Source: Clavulina sp. PMI_390 (Eukaryota; Basidiomycota; Agaricomycetes; Cantharellales; Hydnaceae). Taken from it: DNA of 64,000 nucleotides. The position numbers and the translations under genes were made by a program. This document shows positions 32,730 through 60,900 of the stretch, piece after piece; the stretch's first letter is position 1, and each line of letters starts with the position of its first letter. The stretch covers positions 301,936 to 365,935 of the forward strand of contig WIDE01000004.1 in the NCBI GenBank assembly GCA_015039315.1, read 5' to 3'. A model generated the notes under the pieces. That model saw only the letters and a program-made list of their open reading frames with translations. It did no database searches and was not told the origin of the DNA.

Positions 32730-35700
32730 TTATATGCGCCCCGCTAGTCTGGAACCATTCCGAGCAACGGTTGCAGAAGGTCCTCGAAGATCTCCTATAG
32801 TTGGGAAGGGTTTGGGGCCTTCCCCATTTGAAACGGGCCGCGTCGTTTGCAAATACGTGAGCATGGCAGGAATAAGACTATTCTGCTCGCAAGCCGACAC
32901 CAAGTCCATCAGCTTCATTGGCTCGGGTCGTCCTTTGTCCGCCTTGTTAGCAGCAGTAGCTGTAGGTTGGACCAGACGATTTGGAAGCATGTCCACATCT
33001 TCACGATCGTTCTCATCACCTGGATCGACGAGTGCATCCCGTAGCGCCTGGAGCGCAATGACGTCGACCGCCCGTTGTGGTGAGGGGTGTGAAGAGCCAG
33101 AGGAAGAGCGGCTGCCCCCAACAAGGCGCTCCAGTTCCCTGACCCAGACTTGATGCTCGTTCTCATCAACGACGTTGAAACGGTAGCTACGTTGGCGGAC
33201 TGGTGCGTTTGGAGAATATGAAGTAAAGGATTTAGTGGCGGGGAAGGAGAGGGTGAAAGTGTTGGGCATGAATGGGCGCTCAACACTAATAGTGCAGGAA
33301 CTGGGCAAAGAGGCATATCTTGCAGCATTGGCCCCAGTACGAACGAATAGCATTTCCCGCTTCCCAATAACGTTTCCTGTGATAACAAACGACGCCTCGT
33401 TTGAGCGGGAGAAATCAAGGGAAGAACGATTGAAGGAGAGGTTGTGGCCATAGAGATGGACACAGAAGAAGGGATCTGGTCTTGGGATGCGCACAGTGAT
33501 GCTGGTTGACGGGACGCGCGAGACAAGAGTGGGGGGCGGGGTGAAGGTGATCGGGATTTGCTGGTCTTGCTCAGACTTTTCGAGGCCTTGAATGAGACGA
33601 TCATTCCGAATTGACAAATACACCCTGTGCAATAAGTCATCGGTGACCAGGGAAAGGGGGTCCATTTCTTGGAATTCAGATATGAAGTCGTGTGCAGGAA
33701 GACTGTTTGCATTGAAATCTTGCCCATGAAGAATGTTGTTGAGTTGCATCATCGCGACGACCAGCTTCATGCTAAGTTCCCGATCAAAAGTGACCTCGCC
33801 TTGGTTTGCCTCGTACCATCGACTTGCGAAAGACGCCAATAAGTGCTCGGTTTGGTGCGTGTCTTTGGGCATGCGGATTGTCAGAAGGAAGAACCGTAAT
33901 GCAATATCAATTCTCATCCCCTTGAAGCTAAAGCGGTCCAGGAAGGACTTCAGTACAGCCTTATTAGACCGGCGGGCGAGATATTCGGCTAGAGCGCTTG
34001 GATCGAGCCCAGTAGTCCTGAATAGCAAGCTTGCGATCGTGGCTGGCTCACGAGAAAGACCGGTCTTCTGTATGCAACGCGATAGCGCGTCCTCAGGTCT
34101 GGTCGTGAAATCACGAACAAGTGTCTGGATGGATGGAAGGGCCATGTATTCCTGGTGTGACCTTGTTCGAGGCAGTTGGAGGGATGCGGACTGGAGATCA
34201 ACGACGTTACGAACAAGGAGTCTTCGATCCATGATTGGGTTTGTGAAATCATCGGGGTGGAATTTGGCCACAACAAGGATGTCGTTGAAAAGGAGGAGGA
34301 ACCGGTTTTTAACCTCATTGGGGCTCACGACTTGGCGAACGATAGCATGATTGATAAACCGCCGAGGCGCAGGGCCAAGGGAAAAAGGATCTGACGTGGT
34401 GCCAGTGGCATTATCAATCAGGGCGTTGAATTCCTGCATTAGGGCAGGTGTCCTTGGTGTAGGCGGCTTGGCCATCGCAGACTTGATAGGGGTCGTGGGG
34501 GTAATGGAGGTAGTAGGAGAGACGGGAGTCCTGATGGCGAGGTTAAGGGGTGGTGTAGTTGGGAATTGCCCAAGGGTGGGGGAAAGGTTGTTATCGGATA
34601 TGGAAGAAGATGTGGAGGTGGTCGACATGTGGCCATTTGTTCGCCGAACCTCGTCAATCGAGTCGTCCAAACTAGGGCGGTCAGACGAGATGCGGTCAGA
34701 AGAGATTCGATCAGACGGCCTCTCTGACCGGGATGAGGTGGAACTAATGGACGGGCCGACGCTGATGGTCTCGGTGGGTGAACCGGCCATCTTCCTCATT
34801 TGATCGAGCGCCCTGCGTTTGACTCCAGGGCGAGGAGTAGCATTCGCAGAGCGATCTTCTTTCTCAGTCCCAGAGTCTGCGCCACGAACTAGATCGCTCA
34901 GGGTATTGGCTTTGCGTCGGCTACCTCCTCCAGGCCGGATTGTATTAGAATCCGATATCGCACCGGTCGTAAGGTTGTCCGAGGACTTCCCAGCTTTGCC
35001 TACATGGAGCTGGATCCAATGCAAGGCACCTTCTCGGGTCTGAGGCAATGACAACTTCGCCTTAGGGCCAGCACCTGGTGTGGGACTCCTAGGGGAGAGC
35101 GGAGCAAGATCAAAGTACGCAGGTGTTATACGGCCGTCTGCGTCTTCGTAGTCAGTCATATCTCCCGGGTGAGACCCCTCTCCACTGGATCGATACCGTG
35201 CGAGAAGCTTCGAGTCTGAGGCTTGATGCATCAGAACCGGTTCTGGAGAGTTGACTCGGCTGTTTGGTACAGTGGTAGGGGCATCGGTTCCAGCAAGAGA
35301 GGTCTTGCGTGTCCGTCGCATCTGCTCCTCTAGCCGAACAAGCCCTGGCAGGGGCATCAACTTCGGGTCAGCGTATCGGTTTTTGATGGCGTCAGACATT
35401 GGTGGCATCGGCGATGAACCTTCGCGAGGACGAGGTACAGGGCTGGCAGCGAGCGAGAGTAAAGATGCTGATGATGTGAGTGTGTGTTGCACCGGTTGTG
35501 CTGAGCTCGAAGGAGCAGCCGGCCCGCTCTGATCAGACTTCCCGCTTGCTGCGCTGTCACGATGGGGAGAGGGAAGGCCGGACTCGTCCCTACGTGCTCG
35601 AGCGAAGCTATTGGATCTGGATCGAGGGCGGGTAAAATTCTTCAGCTTTTCCCAACGCGATCCACCTTCTTTCCCACTGTCTCGCTTTTTACGAAGGCGA

Positions 35701-51535: not shown

Positions 51536-51702
51536 ATATATTTGCTATCCTCCTCGATCGCACGTAACTGAGCTGGTGAATATCAGCCGTGGTCCATCCA
51601 TATTCCGGGCGCTCTATGGTAGCAACCACTGATGTTTCAAAGCATGATGATATATTTGCCATCCTCCTCGATCGCACGTAACTGAGCTGGTGAATATCAG
51701 CC
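51536..51702 (+). repeat. Tandem duplication, about 114 bp unit, second copy split by the element
   Basis: Copy 1 is about 51536-51649. Copy 2 begins at 51650, runs to 51702, and resumes at 57887-57955 after the element. The copies differ by a T/C at 51546/51660 and otherwise look identical where I compared them. The unit contains the UPF2 start: an ATG with the first 12 codons at 51616 in copy 1 and at 57922 in copy 2. Confidence 0.9.
51695..51702 (+). repeat. Target site duplication, left copy (TATCAGCC)
   Basis: The 8 bases directly before the left terminal inverted repeat. The same 8 bases follow the right end at 57887-57894. The empty site, TATCAGCC once, is visible at 51581-51588 in the neighbouring duplication copy. 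Confidence 0.92.
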
Positions 51703-51831
51703 TAGTCTCGTACCCAGACCCTATTTGTCGGGACTTGTTTTCGCCTGTTGTTTGTTTGGGTCGGACGGCGAAAAGTCCCTATAGGGTCTGGTACAATTCG
51801 TCATGTGGACCCACCCCGTCACCTGACGTAA
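51703..51831 (+). repeat. Left terminal inverted repeat, 129 bp
   Basis: It matches the reverse complement of 57761-57886. The outer 20 bases are nearly identical, the centre is diverged with small indels, and the inner 48 bases (51784-51831) are identical. It also has an internal inverted pair, CCAGACCCT at 51713-51721 and AGGGTCTGG at 51783-51791, about 60 bp apart, possibly paired protein-binding sites. Confidence 0.92.
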
Positions 51832-51866
51832 GCATTTCACAGCCTATTTGCCCTCCATCCCCTACT

Positions 51867-54618
51867 ATGGCGCCCACCTCCAACGATACTCCAGGCCAAG
51901 ACCGACGCAGAAACCACTCCCTGGACAGCGTTAGCGAAGAAAGTCGAGCTCGGGCCTTTGCCGACCCTGCTCGCCTCTGTGATCTTGCTGTCAGAGTCGT
52001 CCAAGATCTGAGGGCTGCCGGGGTTGACCTCGTCATACTGCTCGACTTTATCCTTTGGGGATCCGATACCTCTATATCTAATCAAATCCTTCAGCAGGCT
52101 CGCTATCGCTTCACACATTACTCCAATCTGCCTTCCATTCTTGATCGACTTGCGCGTCCTCCCGCGGGCAGAAATGGGCAGCGACCCGAAGGCGCTTCCC
52201 AAGCCCTTCACTCATGGGCTATTCAATATGTGGAGAGCATTATTATGAAGGACATGGCAAAGATTGGCGCATTACTTGACTCATCTAATGAAGATGTATC
52301 TCGAGAGTCTCTTATGTCAATTAAATTTGATTCTTTAATGGACTCGATGAAGAAAGACACCCCAGATCTGTGGCGCCTTATGAGAAAAGCTGCATACACT
52401 GAGAAGCAAGATGCGAGGAACTCAAAGAAGACTCCCGACCGAGTATGTCACTTAAGATCTCCTTGACTCGACAGCCCATGGAGGACTGATTCACTGTTGC
52501 AGGTTATCACTCAGATACTCTCGATGGCTGCGTACTCATCATCCCAACGTCACAACAAAATCGCCAAGTTGAATGCAATTAGTATGAGAGCTGCAGGCGT
52601 TCCTGTTCGCACAATGGATGCACTTCACGCTATGGGGATTACGATGTCATATAGCTGGACGTGTGATTGCATCAATAGTCTGACAGACGCCGAAAGAGGA
52701 GCGTTTCAGGCTACAATGCAGCAAATCCCCGAAGTTCCCCACACATGCCTTTTCAGATGGGATAATTTCAACTTTGGTTCTAAGGTGTTTGAGTATCGAA
52801 TCCTTCATCAAAAACATTTTCGGAGCGGAACTGCCATTACTGCTCAAATTCTCCCGCCTGCTGCCAGAGTCTTGGCAAATCGCGCAACTCTGATGGAAGG
52901 CCGTAAGAAAGGGGCTTCCACTCGATTTGATGTCCACAAAGCACTCTTTGACGAAGCGCGGCAAGATTCAACTGACGCATTCTATCGGCACCATGTCTTG
53001 TCAATTCTGCTCGAGCACCCCGACATGGAAGGTTATAAATACCGGGCTGATCCAACCCTCGCCTCGCCTCCGCCCGTTCAGCAGCTTGAAGGAGGCGCAG
53101 AAGCAGTTCGCCGCACCTTCATGCTTGGTGCTTATCCAATTGACGAGGCTACATTGGCTGGCAATGCGGAGGTGATCCAGAAGATCATGGACCTTGCCGG
53201 GTTGAGTGAAGGCGAACCATTGAAGTGGTTTGCTGAATCAGGTGTCATGCTGGTCGGGGGTGACCTTCTTACAATCGATCGATTCCTCAGCTTATACATG
53301 CTGAGGGCGGACGACATCAATGGCGCTGAACGCCTCGACGCTTTCCTACCAACGTTTGGCTGGCTCCACGCGATGTTTGCATTAGTAGAGTCAATGCATA
53401 CGCAATACAAAGGAACCGCAGCAGGGCTCGGAATAAATCATGCCGCTGTCGTCCTCAAAAGAAAAAAGCTCGCAAACCTCGATAAACGTGGGCCATGGTA
53501 TCGAATCGTTGAGGCAGGTCTACTCGATATGCTTGAAGCTCATATTATTGGCGCATACCTGGTGGTCGGGGATGCTTCCTCTATTGTTGAGCTCAAAAAA
53601 TTATCTCCTGGCGAGCTCAAGGTCCTTGCTGACGAAGTATACAAACGATTCGCTTCAACAACGGCGTTACGGATGAAGGATGGCGCAGACGAGGTACTCA
53701 AGGCATCAATAATGTTCATTCGAGACACTCTGGTTTTACGCGAGCTTGTGACAGCGATTCGCGTGGGCGATGTTGGTCGCATGCATAATCTTATCCCCAC
53801 CCTGCTGGCGCGATTCCATGGGGGCGCAAACAAGAACTACGCAAACCACTTCTTTGAGCTAGTGCAATGTCTAAGCGTCGACTGGGATGCTGATATATGG
53901 TAGGTGCTAATGCGATAACACTGTTTAAGTGGGTCTCATAAATCTGTCCAGTGATTTGGTGATGAAATATGGATGGCTTCTGACAACTGATGGGAAAAAT
54001 TGGCTCCCTGTCGACGAGGACCAGGAGCATATGATCAGATTGATTAAGGTATATCTCTTTTGTCGAGTTCAATGCAAACGCTTATGTCAATCCAAGGGTT
54101 TTGCCCAAAGCCATGGCCCCGAAGATCCAATGGATTTTATTGAGAAGATTGCTCCCGCCATCCCTACACTCCGAGCTGTACTGGATCACTATCACGATAC
54201 AATCGGAGGGAGCAATAGGGGAGCAAAACATACAAGTCCGGATCGGGAGGATGATATAGCGAAACTTTGCAAAGCATATCGACAAGCTCGAGTTCACCTC
54301 TATGAGCCTGGTCGCTCAGTCACACACCAAGATGATTTGCCCAAAGACATAGTTGCAAACGGGTGGAAGTTAATTGTTGAAGGGGTATCGATTGATCAAT
54401 GGTTCACTACTCGAGCGGCAAGCATGCCTCGATCCGATGCTCAAACCTTCATCACTAGTATTGACAGAAAGAGCAACAATACCAACGGCTCGAAAGATAC
54501 CCAAGGGGATGGAAAGGGAAGTGAAGAAGGTGGAGGGACGGAGCGCCAAGAGGGAACTATCATTTCTGGGGGAGAAGAGTCAGATCCAAGTGACTATGAT
54601 GATCTCTATCTCGACTAG
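51867..54618 (+). CDS. DUF6589-type protein, putative transposase
   Basis: Exons 51867-52442, 52503-53899, 53952-54048 and 54097-54618 give 863 residues; the last intron is 48 nt and in frame, so it may be retained. It starts with MAPTSNDTPGQD just inside the left TIR. Blocks fit the Agaricomycete DUF6589 family: HNKIAKLNAISMRAAGVPVR with a TMDALHAMGITMSYSW helix, CLFRWDNFNFG (Asp about 279), MLVGGDLLTIDRFLSLYMLR (Asp about 446), FLPTFGWLHAMFALVESMHTQY, GINHAAVVLKRKKLANLD and LLDMLEAHIIGAYLVVG (Glu about 537). The C-terminus is acidic and Gly/Ser-rich. I recognise the family from its pattern, not a search. The conserved acidic residues could form a DDE/RNase H-like site; that is inference. 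Confidence 0.75.
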
Positions 54619-54746
54619 CCTTGGGAGGTGAGGACCCAAACGGATCACCATGGAAGTGGTCTGGGGGGTCTTGCATAGGTGCATCGGATTCAAATCGAAG
54701 TGGCTGGATAGGCGGTAGAGTAGATGCTGCTGCTTCTGTACAGACA
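54619..54746. other. Convergent spacer inside the element
   Basis: 128 bp between the stop codons of the two element genes; presumably both 3' ends. A further short helicase exon here cannot be excluded. Confidence 0.5.
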
Positions 54747-57684
54747 TCATGATACCCGTCGTCGACTGGTTACGAATAGAGGAAACATACCAGCATGACT
54801 CCCAGTTCTGTCTCTGCTTGGAGATCCAGAAAGGGAAACTTGAGTAAGACGATGTGGAGTGGAAGGTCGTTCTGGCATCATAAAGTTCTGGGCATCTTCG
54901 ATACGAAAGCGCTTTGATGGTCTTTGGATAGTGACGGCGCTGGCTTGTACAGTGGAGACGGCTAGCGATGAGGTAGCAGGAGGATACCGGAAAGCCCTTT
55001 CAAGCGTGGGTGAGACAACATAAGGAACAACTGGGGATCCCTTGATAGGAGAGAAATTCGGTTTCCGCGGTTGTTGCACGGAAGGAGCGAGTGGGAGTGC
55101 AAGCGGCTTGAAAGTAGCATCAGCATGACTAATAGCCCTAGTGAAAGCGGTTGACAGAGTATATGGAGTGGAGAAGAGGCTGGAAGATGAGGGACGATTT
55201 GGTGTCTGCGGTTGCACAAGAAGAGTCCTGGGAAGAGTAGTGGCAGACCTAGGCCACGCAGCAGGTCTATGTGAGACTGGAGATGAGAATTGCACAGGTT
55301 TTGGTAAGGTTCGAGGATAGTAATCCACTAAATGCCCCTGGGTGTCGCCCTCAATCCTCTCTATCGCCTGTCCTCCTGTCCCAGCAGAGGTATTATTATG
55401 TCGCTCTTCCTGGTCAACCCGCGCCATCCCGTCAAAGAGCTCGGCGGCAAACGGCTTACAGAAGGGCCACAAGTCTTCCAGTCCATGCAAAGACAGGTAC
55501 CTCCGTATCGTCAAAATAGACATTATCTTCTCGCCTGGAAGATTTTCCCGAGCAACGCCGTGCTTAGCATATCGTTTTATCCATAGTTCATCAAAGAATT
55601 TGTTGAGAAATGCCTCTAGAGGGGGACGATGCTTTATAGGTCGTAACTTGTATGAGTTGTTCTTAGGTTGTCGCCGAGGGGCCGCAGGTATATATGTTGC
55701 CGAAGCATCATCGTCGTACTCATCTAGTTCGGTGGTTGCGAGCACGTCGTCGTGGATGGTTTGCTGGGGTGCCTTCGTCAAAGACGATTCCGAATCGTAA
55801 GTCCTCTCGTCCATCTGAGGGGCTGCAAGAGACAGAGTCTGTGACGAAAGAGATGCCAGAGCTGGGGCAAGAATCTGGTGTGAGTCCATTTTCCTAATTT
55901 TGGTAGACGAAATCGGGGTCTGGGAAGGAGAAGAGGCCTCTTCCCGAATCTGGGAGTAGGGCTGAGCACAGATATCGCAGCATTTGTGCGGCAGAACTGT
56001 TCAAGACAAGTCATCATCAATGTTCGCGTAGGTATCGAAGATAGACAGACTTACTTTCGGTGTCCGGAAGTGGAGAGTTGAAGTAATTCCTGAGCCAGAT
56101 CCGACGACATCCACTGCATCTAGCAAATTCCCGGACATCAGTGTCCAAGCGACGCTTCCACTGCAAGCCTACACCCGGATCTGGGCGTTGCATCAGATTA
56201 AGATCCGAATCCTTTTCCAGATATTCACTATCGTCCAACTCGAGAACCTCGGTCTTGATGGTCATAGATTCCGATTTACCAGCCTCAAACAGCTCCAACG
56301 CTCCGGCTTGTGTCGACAGTGACTTGTTCTTAGGTATCTTCTGGATCTGAAATGCTCCTCGTTCGAAGATTACAATTGCTCGCGCAGCCATTGATGGAGT
56401 TCGTCCGGCACGGCCTATTCGCTGAACCAGTGTACAGATGGAGGGGGGCGCGCCATATTGAATGACTTCCTCTATATCTGGAGCGTCGAGCCCCTAAGAA
56501 GATTATCGCGTCCATTTCTATCTTCATAGAACAGATGAGTATGCGCACCATTGCAGCGGCTTCAGTGGTCACCAGGACAAGGATTTTGCCGTCCATAAAC
56601 TGCTGAAGAGTGACTTGCTTGCTGTCCAACCCTCGTAGTGAACTATAGGGCGCTATCTTCTGTTGCATAGACGGAGGAATCTCACTGCGAATACGATTGG
56701 TTAGAAGCTGAGCATCCGCGCAGGCATCAACGAAAATAAATCGTCGCTTCATAGTTCCAGTTTTGGCTTCAGCGATGACATCAAGAAAGTCGGGGATGGG
56801 ATCCGTGGTGGAACCTTTTTTGAGCCGAACGGAGATGTGAAGGTTAGGACGATCGTTGCCAAGGTTGATGAAGAAAGTATTCTCCTTGTTATAGAGCAGG
56901 GTGTTGAGGACGGTCTGAAGTATGGAAGGGGGTAGAGTCGCGCTAGCGGCCATAACTGGCACCCGGGTAACGGCACGAAGGTCGCCAAGTTCTGAATATG
57001 CGTTCCTAAATGTCTGCCACTGATTGATGCAGTGAGCCTCGTCAATAACAAACTTGTCAATGCGCTTGCCAGCATCGCGTAGATACTTGATGAACCGATC
57101 ATTTCCAAGGAGCATCTCTGGGGACGTGATGGCGATCTGATAGTAGCCCTTTGCAAGTTTCTACTTCCAGTGTGGTCAGGTGTGAAGTGTTGCAAAGGCT
57201 AAATTGGTTATCGTTGGGTGACTACTCACTTGACGGAGTTCCTGCTGTCGAAAAGTCTCTGCATTCACAGCACACGCTTTCAGGCCCATGGCCTCGAAGC
57301 GCTTGACCTGGCAAAAATCTTGTCATAACACGCGCATAATACGATTTAAGAGGCTCGCACTTGGTCGTATTCAAGGGCGTTCAATGGGGAAACGATTATA
57401 GTGAGACGATCGGGGACAATAAGGTGGACGAGGACAAAGGGCAGCGTCTTGCCAAAGCCGGTGCCTGCTGAGATAACCGTGTCGAGACCGAGGAACGCTG
57501 CCTCAGCCACATCTAACTGCCATTCATAAGGATTGTGGTTGGTGACTTCCTTGGCGGCCACGCAAAGGGCGGCGCGAAAGGTATCGGATTTGAATTTCTT
57601 GCGCTTGAACATCACTTTCGTAATTTCACGAGCACGTTCTAGGAGTTCACGCGACTCTTTGCTGAGGTACGAGGGAGCCGGCAT
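54747..57684 (-). CDS. RecQ-like DEAH DNA helicase carried by the element
   Basis: Start MPAPSYLSKESREL at 57684. Motifs in order: NPYEWQLDVAEAAFLGLDTV (motif 0), SAGTGFGKTLPFVL (Walker A), FVIDEAHCINQWQTFRNAY (DEAH plus the aromatic-rich loop diagnostic of RecQ), VMAASATLPPS, LGNDRPNLHISVRL, ILVLVTTEAAAMGLDAPDIE (rebuilt across an intron), VIQYGAPPSICTLVQRIGRA (motif VI). A four-Cys zinc region follows (CSGCRRIWLRNYFN, HKCCDIC), as in RecQ. No RQC or HRDC domain is evident; the C-terminal 380 residues are Ser/Pro-rich with a short helical patch (LEAFLNKFFDELWIKRYAKH). Probably assists transposition, replication or repair of the element; that role is inferred. Confidence 0.88.
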
Positions 57685-57760
57685 TGATGCCAGCACTAGA
57701 GACTATGAAGAATGTAGGGTAACATATAAGGGATCGAGGGCCAAATAGGCTGTGAACGGA

Positions 57761-57886
57761 TTACGTCAGGTGACGGGGTGGGTCCACATGACGAATTGTA
57801 CCAGACCCTCTAGGCTTCTTCGCCCGTCCAACCAAACAAACAATAGGGCGAAATAGAGCCAAACAGAGGGTCTGGGCACGAGACTA
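57761..57886 (-). repeat. Right terminal inverted repeat, 126 bp
   Basis: Inverted partner of 51703-51831. The inner 48 bases (57761-57808) are identical to the left copy; the outer part has a few substitutions and small indels. Confidence 0.92.
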
Positions 57887-57894
57887 TATCAGCC
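57887..57894 (+). repeat. Target site duplication, right copy (TATCAGCC)
   Basis: Identical to 51695-51702 and directly outside the right TIR. It lies 28 bp before the UPF2 start codon. Confidence 0.92.
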
Positions 57895-57921
57895 GTGGTC
57901 CATCCATATTCCGGGCGCTCT

Positions 57922-60900
57922 ATGGTAGCAACCACTGATGTTTCAAAGCATGATGATGAGTCTCAGCGGCGAGAACGGCGTCGTCAGTTGAGAAATCTCA
58001 ATGCTACAGCCCACTTGTCGAGTACGCGCGTGTCTGGACCCGATAAATAGACGCTAAAACGAGTTCATTTCATTCTTTATTCAAGATTCGGCTGGGGCCT
58101 TGGATTCTTCCCTCAAGCGCCATACCGCGTTGATTAAGCGTATGCGTCAGTCTATGGGGCTGGAGAATCGAGACCAGCTAATACGTGATATTGAGGGGCT
58201 GGCTCTAGAGAAATACCTGGAAGAGATCGTTTCAGCATCTGCAGAGGGATGCCTGCGTTGTAAAAGTGAAAAGGATAGCTGGGCCGCAGTTGAGGTCCGT
58301 GTAACTTGCCCGCAGCCGTTGACATTCCGCTGATTTCTTCCCAGGTTATTTCTACCTTGCACAGGCGATTCCCCGGAAGCTACACTCCCCCGCTGATAAA
58401 CTCCCTCTCTACGTCCCTTGCACCGACCCCTCGGTCTCAACTAGCATCCTTGTCTCCCGAACAAAGGGAGAAGGAAGAGTCTGCCCGAGTGACCCGCCAG
58501 CGGCCAATCCTTCGGGTTTGTTCCGAGCTTGCTCTTGTAGGACTCATATGCGATGGCCCGAATCGTAGTGGAGGGGAGTGGGTTATGAAGGCTATTAAGG
58601 ATCTGGTCTGTTCGTCTGCTGCTCAGTTACACTAGACGCTAACTGTTCAGGTTAGATATCCAACGACCCAACGCTATCTTCTCTTCCGCTCCTCTCTACA
58701 TTCTTGAAATCTTATGGCCGCCCGTTTCTTGGCCTGACACCCAGTAATGCTACGGATCAGCTGCCAGCCTCGACTGAGCCAGGGGAGCTGTCGGCTGCTA
58801 CCCAAAACCATCATGCTGCGAAGTCCGTCAAAGAGGAGGAAGAATTAGTAGAAAAGGATATTCGCGAGAAATTCAAGCGTATGTGTGATGGATATTTTGA
58901 GACAATATCTAGGCAGCTGGTGAAGGAGCATCTCGTAAGTTGTTCAACCGTGGCCTTGATCTCCAGTTTTTCACAAATCTGTAGCGACTACAAGAGCAAG
59001 ATCGCCGTAATCATGAGGCCTATATACGATCAGGCGAAATCTTCGAAGACCGTCAACAGGCTTATGAGAAGATGACAAAGAGCTATGAGAAGCTGTTGTC
59101 GAGCTGTCAAGTGTCAGTACATTAAGCTCTTTGTGGACTAATTGCTCTGAGCTCATAGTTCAAATAGATTATCAGATTTGCTTTCACTGCCTATGCCACA
59201 CCTGCCCACCATCGCTGAGCAAACAAGCTCCATCGGCGTTACAGATGGCTCTGGGTCAAAACCAGGTGATATCGATGAAATCACTGCTGTGGGGAAATGG
59301 GAGGATGAAGAGGAGCGTCGCTTCTATGAGGAAATACCAGATCTCAAAGAATTTGTCCCCAAGAGTGTTCTCGGTCTTGATGGAGGTACTGGGGATGACC
59401 ACTTACCCCAGAATGCTACCTCCGACGATGCTGAGAGTCGAAAACGCCAAGAAGCAGATGAGATCCAGCGACTCGAGTCTAAGATGGAAGAGCTGAAAGT
59501 TGATACTGCCGCAGATGACGAAGACGAGTAAGCAATCTTCCAGTCTCCGAAGCTTGCAACCTGTCACCTATCAAGATCCCGTTTACCTCTAGTGCTCCCA
59601 CCCCTGTGCCAACCCCTCCCCGCAGCCAGTCACCGACCACAGGAGCCGTTGGTCCGGGCCCCTCAGCCCTCCTTACCAATCTGCTCGCTCGTTTACCGGA
59701 CGCTACGAATCGTGCACTGACCGATCAAGCTGCCGTAGACTTTGCATTTCTCAACTCGAAAGCCGCTCGCAAGCGGCTTGTCAAGGTGAACTGTGACCTT
59801 CGCTTCCTGATCCTTTAGCGTACAGGGCTAATTCGGACCCATAGTTCCTCGGCCAAGTGCCGAAGAACCGCACTGACCTACTTCCACATTATTCACGACT
59901 TGTAGCAAGTCTGAACCGATACATGCCTGATGTTGGCACGGATCTCCTAGCTGTTGTAAGTCTAAAAACCGCATCCAAAAGATTTACTATCACTAATTCG
60001 GGGAGTGGTGGTTAGCTTGAAGAAGAATTCCGCTATCTGCAGAGAAAGAAAAATGTCGTTCGAGAATTTGCTGAGCAGCGATTGAAGGTAATGAGCATGC
60101 ACCCCCTAATTCCTTGCGCTAACTCGAAACCTATTCTGTAGAATGTGACGTTCTTGTCCGAGCTGACCAAGTTTGGAGTCGTCCCTCCCCATTTCATTCT
60201 ACACGTATTCAAAGTCTACCTCGATGAGTTCTCCGGCGTGAACATTGATAACACAGCAATGCTCCTCGAGAAATGTGGACGTTATCTCATGAGGACAGAG
60301 GAGACTACGGAGAAAATGGTCTTTCTGGTAAGATTGACGCTCGTCCATCCGACCCTGGCTAATAATGATACCTTCAGGTCGAGCTCATGCGTCGCAAGCA
60401 GAATGCCCAGCATCTCGATCAGCGACAAGTATTGGCACTTGAGAATGCTTATTATCAGGTGCGCAACTACTTCGTCCTCCATGCATGATTTCGACCCATT
60501 GATCCCTCTCTTTAGTGCAATCCTCCTGAACGCGGCCCACGACAGATCAAGGAGCGACCTGTGATGGAACAGTTCATTCGCCATCTAATGTCGGATGTTT
60601 TGTCAAAGAAAACCATCGATAAGGTACTCAAATTGCTTCGCAAGCTTGATTGGGATGATGCCGAGGTAAGCTTGCTTTGTCTGCCATACCCTGCGTCCCA
60701 ATTTAGACCGAAGATCCATCGCCCAGGTTGCTATTTACATCCGGAAGGCGTTCGTGAAGCCATGGAAGCTGAAGTACAACAACATCAGTTTGCTCGCAAT
60801 GCTGGCCTACGACCTCCAGCGATACCATTCAGAATTTGTTATTGGCGTGGTTGACCAAGTTTTCGAGGATATCCGACAAGGTCTTGAGGTGAGCTTAGTC

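Follow-up and report, generated by a model that had tools for sequence, protein, structure and literature searches.

We analysed a 64,000-nucleotide stretch of the Clavulina sp. PMI_390 (Cantharellales) genome, referred to below as the window, and found that its positions 51703-57886 form a 6,184-bp DNA transposon that carries two genes, a DUF6589 gene on the + strand and a RecQ-type helicase gene on the - strand, arranged convergently, tail to tail. We consider it probable (about 0.85) that the element is a two-gene cut-and-paste transposon of the AcademH type within the Academ superfamily, complete and apparently intact, with the DUF6589 protein serving as its DDE (Asp-Asp-Glu) transposase. 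The Academ/AcademH class is known, while the assignment of DUF6589 and the hairpin design of the ends appear to be new.

To delimit the element, we aligned it to its own reverse complement. The two ends proved to be inverted repeats, 84.8% identical across 171 columns (E 1.8e-40); the alignment pairs element positions 1-167 with 6184-6021 and includes a perfect inner run of ~49 bp. Inverted ends of 127 bp had been proposed in an earlier note on this DNA; the ends are real, and the 127 bp represent only part of a homology of ~165 bp. The target duplication of the window copy measures 8 bp by exact count, and a reading of 9 bp through one shared A is possible, as an A both precedes the left copy and closes the right end. 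In random flank-pair draws from the flanks of the loci examined, matches of 8-11 bp arose once in 200,000. The element is inserted in the second unit of a 114-bp local tandem duplication (51536-51702 and 57895-57957), whose first unit is intact. The joined flanks differ from this uninterrupted unit by 1 base over ~116, which agrees with the empty site that the earlier note had recognised in a neighbouring duplicated copy, and the two intact convergent genes it had described were likewise recovered by domain matches (DUF6589, E 1.3e-88, +; recQ_fam, E 6.5e-54, -).

Exon structures were modelled manually, the exon 2/3 junction of the DUF6589 gene being additionally backed by protein evidence. 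The four-exon gene encodes a protein of 863 aa with PF20231 (DUF6589) at residues 341-735, and the NCBI partial protein P0001 (Clavulina sp. PMI_390) is identical to it throughout its 472 aa and spans the junction 53899/53952 in agreement with our model. In a Pfam scan of the window protein, in which the HMMER filters remove most matches above E 0.1, PF20231 was the sole match at E up to 1. The scan with three paralogues returned two further families, both unrelated (E 0.11 and 0.21), and a profile search of PDB sequences returned one match, an unrelated mannosidase (E 1.2). Foldseek by itself gave no significant match. Structure predictions for a DUF6589 relative and for a portion of the window protein matched the DDE transposases Hermes (hAT) and Drosophila P element, with a similar predicted core fold and helical insertion, although by sequence DUF6589 matches neither hAT nor P domains in Pfam. 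These predictions suggest that DUF6589 is a DDE enzyme that has an RNase H fold and a helical insertion, and the protein is very likely the transposase of the element. From the predicted fold and the conserved D, D and E, the catalytic residues are likely D279, D446 and, less surely, E683, with the structure model weak near two of them. Another candidate glutamate, E661 of the DUF6589 protein P0003, was set aside because it is replaced by H in the window protein and by Y in the C243 protein, whereas all three paralogues retain E704. The same position falls in a motif that reads NYGNE in most DUF6589 proteins and NYGHE in P0003, and whose E is H in the window copy and Y in C243.

The - strand gene encodes, by its domain matches, a RecQ-type helicase of superfamily 2. 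At least five exons were modelled (57684-57361, 57307-57230, 57160-56549, 56493-56055, and 55996 to ~54746), with an uncertain 3' end for which a last splice at 54791/54735 is an alternative. The protein scored 183.5 bits against TIGR00614 recQ_fam, under the curated cut-off of 219.8 bits of this bacterial model, and matched DEAD (9.9e-20) and Helicase_C (1.1e-14) in Pfam; its nearest PDB sequences were WRN first, followed by RecQ, BLM and RECQ1. In the manual models the start codons lie close to the ends of the element, at distances of 164 bp (left) and 202 bp (right), which makes it probable that the ends bear the promoters of both genes as well.

To determine how DUF6589 and RecQ genes are associated elsewhere in the genome, we searched it for PF20231 (5 candidates, all 5 scored). 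The family was present at C236 (the window), C74 and C243, and at each of these three loci a RecQ-like gene adjoins the DUF6589 gene tail to tail on the opposite strand. The neighbours at C74 and C243 matched recQ_fam best (E 5.5e-28 and 2.6e-27), again under the 219.8-bit cut-off. Both of these gene pairs sit inside inverted repeats whose sequence is other than that of the window element, and their transposases share just 22-23% identity with that of the window element. The C74 element ends at 34115 and 40350 and is flanked by a 9-bp duplication, AGCAGTTGG. As the three pairs share a common ancestry, the 3/3 pairing does not represent three independent events. RecQ-like matches also occurred away from DUF6589, at C289, C291 and seven weaker sites. 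The pairing of DUF6589 with a dedicated RecQ that the earlier note had put forward thus held at every DUF6589 locus found in this genome, and each of these loci is bounded by inverted repeats, DUF6589 genes never so bounded being the case it had named against itself. At C243:235886-241507 (L035/L036), the element has perfect 196-bp ends and a left flank that reads N; the perfect ends suggest recent insertion or recent homogenisation.

We then compared copies that share the ends of the window element. With up to 2 mismatches allowed, the 20-base end TAGTCTCGTRCCCAGACCCT was found at least 13 times and its reversed control 0 times, counts from the genome search being lower bounds. Besides the window element, both ends were present at C164 (7.0 kb) and at C2, C202 and C29 (0.58-0.64 kb); a 0.57-kb copy at C262 has one end broken, and single or partial ends lie at C11, C134 and C24. 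The perfect 8-bp duplication of the earlier note is exact for the window copy but is not typical of its relatives, which have 9 bp in three of four measurable cases (C164, C2 and C29) and 11 bp in the fourth (C202). The short copies have their ends, and not their interiors, in common with the window element, and are likely non-autonomous relatives moved in trans. The C164 copy (C164:299921-306919; L031, L032) has matching ends and ~5.8 kb of interior that reads N. At C134 (L046), two family ends at 178524 and 183562, ~5 kb apart, have equal orientation.

AcademH was reportedly described by Kojima 2020 (Mob DNA 11:15), as papers citing that work relate. The following published traits are taken from excerpts of the papers cited. 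A RecQ helicase is named in Academ, with reference to Kapitonov et al. (PMC3627910), and recognizable domains, including DEAD/DEAH helicase and recQ_fam, were reported in 1,568 of 1,938 fungal Academ copies (PMC6416283), which our element resembles in its RecQ-family helicase; DUF6589 is not named in that excerpt. Target duplications are given as 9 or 10 bp for AcademH and 3 or 4 bp for AcademX, a difference tied to the encoded helicase or nuclease (PMC10045372). AcademH is described as low-copy in Basidiomycota, Ascomycota and Mucoromycota (PMC10799480), and in Marasmius oreades putative non-autonomous Academ elements were reported and autonomous ones sought with a published Academ profile (PMC8290104). 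The Clavulina elements agree with AcademH, so far as these excerpts describe it, in their combination of helicase and transposase, their fungal host, their low copy number and the 9-bp duplications of most related copies. A helicase stands beside the transposase at all three loci (recQ_fam matches, all below cut-off), the duplication is 9 bp in 3/4 measurable same-end copies and also in the C74 element with its other ends, and a DDD/E transposase is indicated by the predicted fold and the conserved D, D and E. The window copy has 8 bp by exact count, with a ninth, shared A that may belong either to the end or to the duplication. The earlier note had suggested that DUF6589 may define a class of DNA transposon with RecQ; its DUF6589 protein is very likely a transposase and is paired with RecQ in 3/3 cases, but the class appears to have been described already as Academ/AcademH.

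An unlikely alternative is that DUF6589 and RecQ define a separate superfamily whose similarity to AcademH is limited to gene content and the length of the duplication. Such a reading would fit the part of the literature that we searched, in which DUF6589 is not named, and the likeness to AcademH is drawn from published descriptions. The palindrome in the ends may also count for it. Against this, the elements fit Academ/AcademH as the excerpts describe it in their type of helicase, their fungal host, their low copy number and their mostly 9-bp duplications, and we retain the AcademH assignment.

We regard it as very improbable that the element is non-autonomous, with DUF6589 and RecQ as passengers moved by another transposase. 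The predicted DDE transposase fold of DUF6589 and the two further DUF6589 and RecQ pairs inside inverted repeats of other sequence argue against it, while the N-filled interior of the C164 copy and the short copies that share only ends with the window element would be compatible with it. No other transposase was met with these ends, no search having been aimed at one, the C164 interior being N and the surroundings of the C11, C134 and C24 ends being unannotated.

KolobokH, a fungal transposon type with a RecQ helicase, has in our estimate the slightest chance of all, as Kolobok inserts at TTAA, while none of the six duplications that could be measured (8-11 bp) is TTAA. In the excerpt of PMC9587614, KolobokH encodes a RecQ helicase, as our element does, and is reported from fungi only, with the helicase downstream of the transposase domain rather than on the opposite strand as in the window element; as the same excerpt reports, however, a red-algal Kolobok encodes RecQ on the complementary strand, and the orientation of the genes is therefore no sufficient ground for excluding Kolobok. 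No hAT transposase domain and no MULE transposase domain (pfam10551) was matched in Pfam at E up to 1, and hAT and MuDR/MULE were set aside. The hAT duplication is 8 bp; the window copy has 8 bp by exact count, and the other five measurable elements have 9 bp (four) or 11 bp (one). Neither hAT nor P elements are known to carry a helicase. Helitrons, which are not known to have inverted ends or target duplications, were set aside in view of the presence of both.

We next examined the structure of the ends. The outer ~90 bp at each end of the window element is an imperfect palindrome whose arm sequences differ between left and right while pairing is kept in each, and among ends of the right type both partners of some base pairs are changed. 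CCAG at positions 12-15 from the YAG end starts an inverted-repeat arm in 5/6 ends of the three families (both C236 ends, both C243 ends and the C74 left end). The best inverted repeat was equalled by 7/500 plain shuffles for C243 and by 0/500 for the C74 left end. The C74 right end lacks this CCAG arm and showed no palindrome, 487/500 plain shuffles reaching its best inverted repeat. Covariation was analysed in 6 of 10 aligned ends, using a hairpin structure derived from the same sequences: 92.9% of cells pair, and 4 pairs changed on both sides compared to a shuffled mean of 2.2 (25/500 shuffles as high), while shuffles attained the number of cells with a two-sided change (6) in 1/500 cases and the covariation score likewise in 1/500. 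When 15 ends (14 of the window-element family and C243) were folded with RNA parameters, z was below -3.8 in eight and -2.3 and -2.9 in two, and six control stretches within the element gave z of -0.3 to 1.2.

Several results limit this evidence. Additional pair types were at the expected level (280/500 shuffles), two of the pairs fail to form in 3 and 4 of the 6 sequences, and one helix is just 80% paired. The remaining five folded ends (C262, C11, C134, C24 and C243) had z of -1.5 or higher, several degraded ends fold like shuffles, the counts are small, and inverted duplication or gene conversion could also have produced the palindromes. Overall, the evidence for hairpin ends is suggestive but falls short of decisive, and their shared design appears to be the most novel part of the element.

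In the mechanism that we infer, the DUF6589 transposase would bind the inverted ends, cut at the TAG ends and join the cut ends across a ~9 bp staggered target cut, in an element that may be active at present. The RecQ-type helicase would have an accessory role, either opening the palindromic ends or assisting in the repair of donor or target gaps. A bolder idea, which we hold to be doubtful, is that the helicase and the hairpin ends work together as a unit, the element moving through an extruded or single-stranded end that RecQ opens or resolves, unlike ordinary cut-and-paste; if true, this would explain why the transposon keeps its own RecQ.

Table 1. Features of the Clavulina element (window positions) and its short relatives (locus positions)
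Feature	Position	Strand	Basis
Left target-site duplication copy TATCAGCC, 8 bp, A before it	51695..51702	.	Sequence and exact-flank test
Left terminal inverted repeat, ~167 bp, starts TAGTCTCGTACCCAG	51703..51869	+	Self-alignment
Left-end palindrome, outer arms CCAGACCCTAT / ATAGGGTCTGG	51710..51794	.	DNA fold z -4.96, 0/200 shuffles as good; inverted-repeat arms 1/500
DUF6589 transposase gene, exon 1, ATG 51867	51867..52442	+	Manual model; exon alone without Pfam match
DUF6589 transposase gene, exon 2, with D279, D446 and conserved H481	52503..53899	+	Reading frame PF20231 E 1e-66; P0001 fold
DUF6589 transposase gene, exon 3, with E683, likely catalytic glutamate	53952..54048	+	P0001 junction; conservation
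DUF6589 transposase gene, exon 4 to stop	54097..54618	+	Manual model
RecQ-type helicase gene	54746..57684	-	Manual model; recQ_fam, DEAD and Helicase_C matches
Right-end palindrome, outer arms CCAGACCCTCT / AGAGGGTCTGG (read from right end)	57801..57875	.	DNA fold z -5.14, 0/200; inverted repeat 0/500
Right terminal inverted repeat, terminates ...CGAGACTA	57723..57886	-	Self-alignment
Right target-site duplication copy TATCAGCC	57887..57894	.	Sequence and exact-flank test
Empty site, uninterrupted first unit of 114-bp tandem duplication	51536..51651	.	Sequence comparison
Short copies, 0.57-0.64 kb	L038:517-1152; L042:2898-3521; L043/L044 (C29:39826-40406); L039:5791-6364		

To assess the distribution of DUF6589, we searched protein and contig collections. 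The window protein alone gave no match in the protein search, and the three-paralogue alignment gave one, a partial copy of the window gene itself. When a conserved stretch near the C-terminus of the C74 copy was used instead, 24 of 101 candidates were DUF6589 proteins (one being the C74 copy itself). The genera represented include Clavulina, Cantharellus, Mycena, Lentinula, Pleurotus and Rhizoctonia, among others, and most of the proteins bear the names hypothetical, uncharacterized or DUF6589. Pattern matches in collections of viral and prokaryote contigs numbered 41 and 35, and no relative was confirmed among them. In the part of the literature that our search covered, DUF6589/PF20231 was not linked to a transposase, and its assignment as one looks like a useful and apparently new re-annotation. 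The palindromic ends offer a concrete substrate for asking why a transposon carries a helicase. DUF6589 proteins occur in many mushroom-forming fungi, and if they are the transposases of RecQ transposons, many of these gene models would be transposon genes rather than fungal functions.
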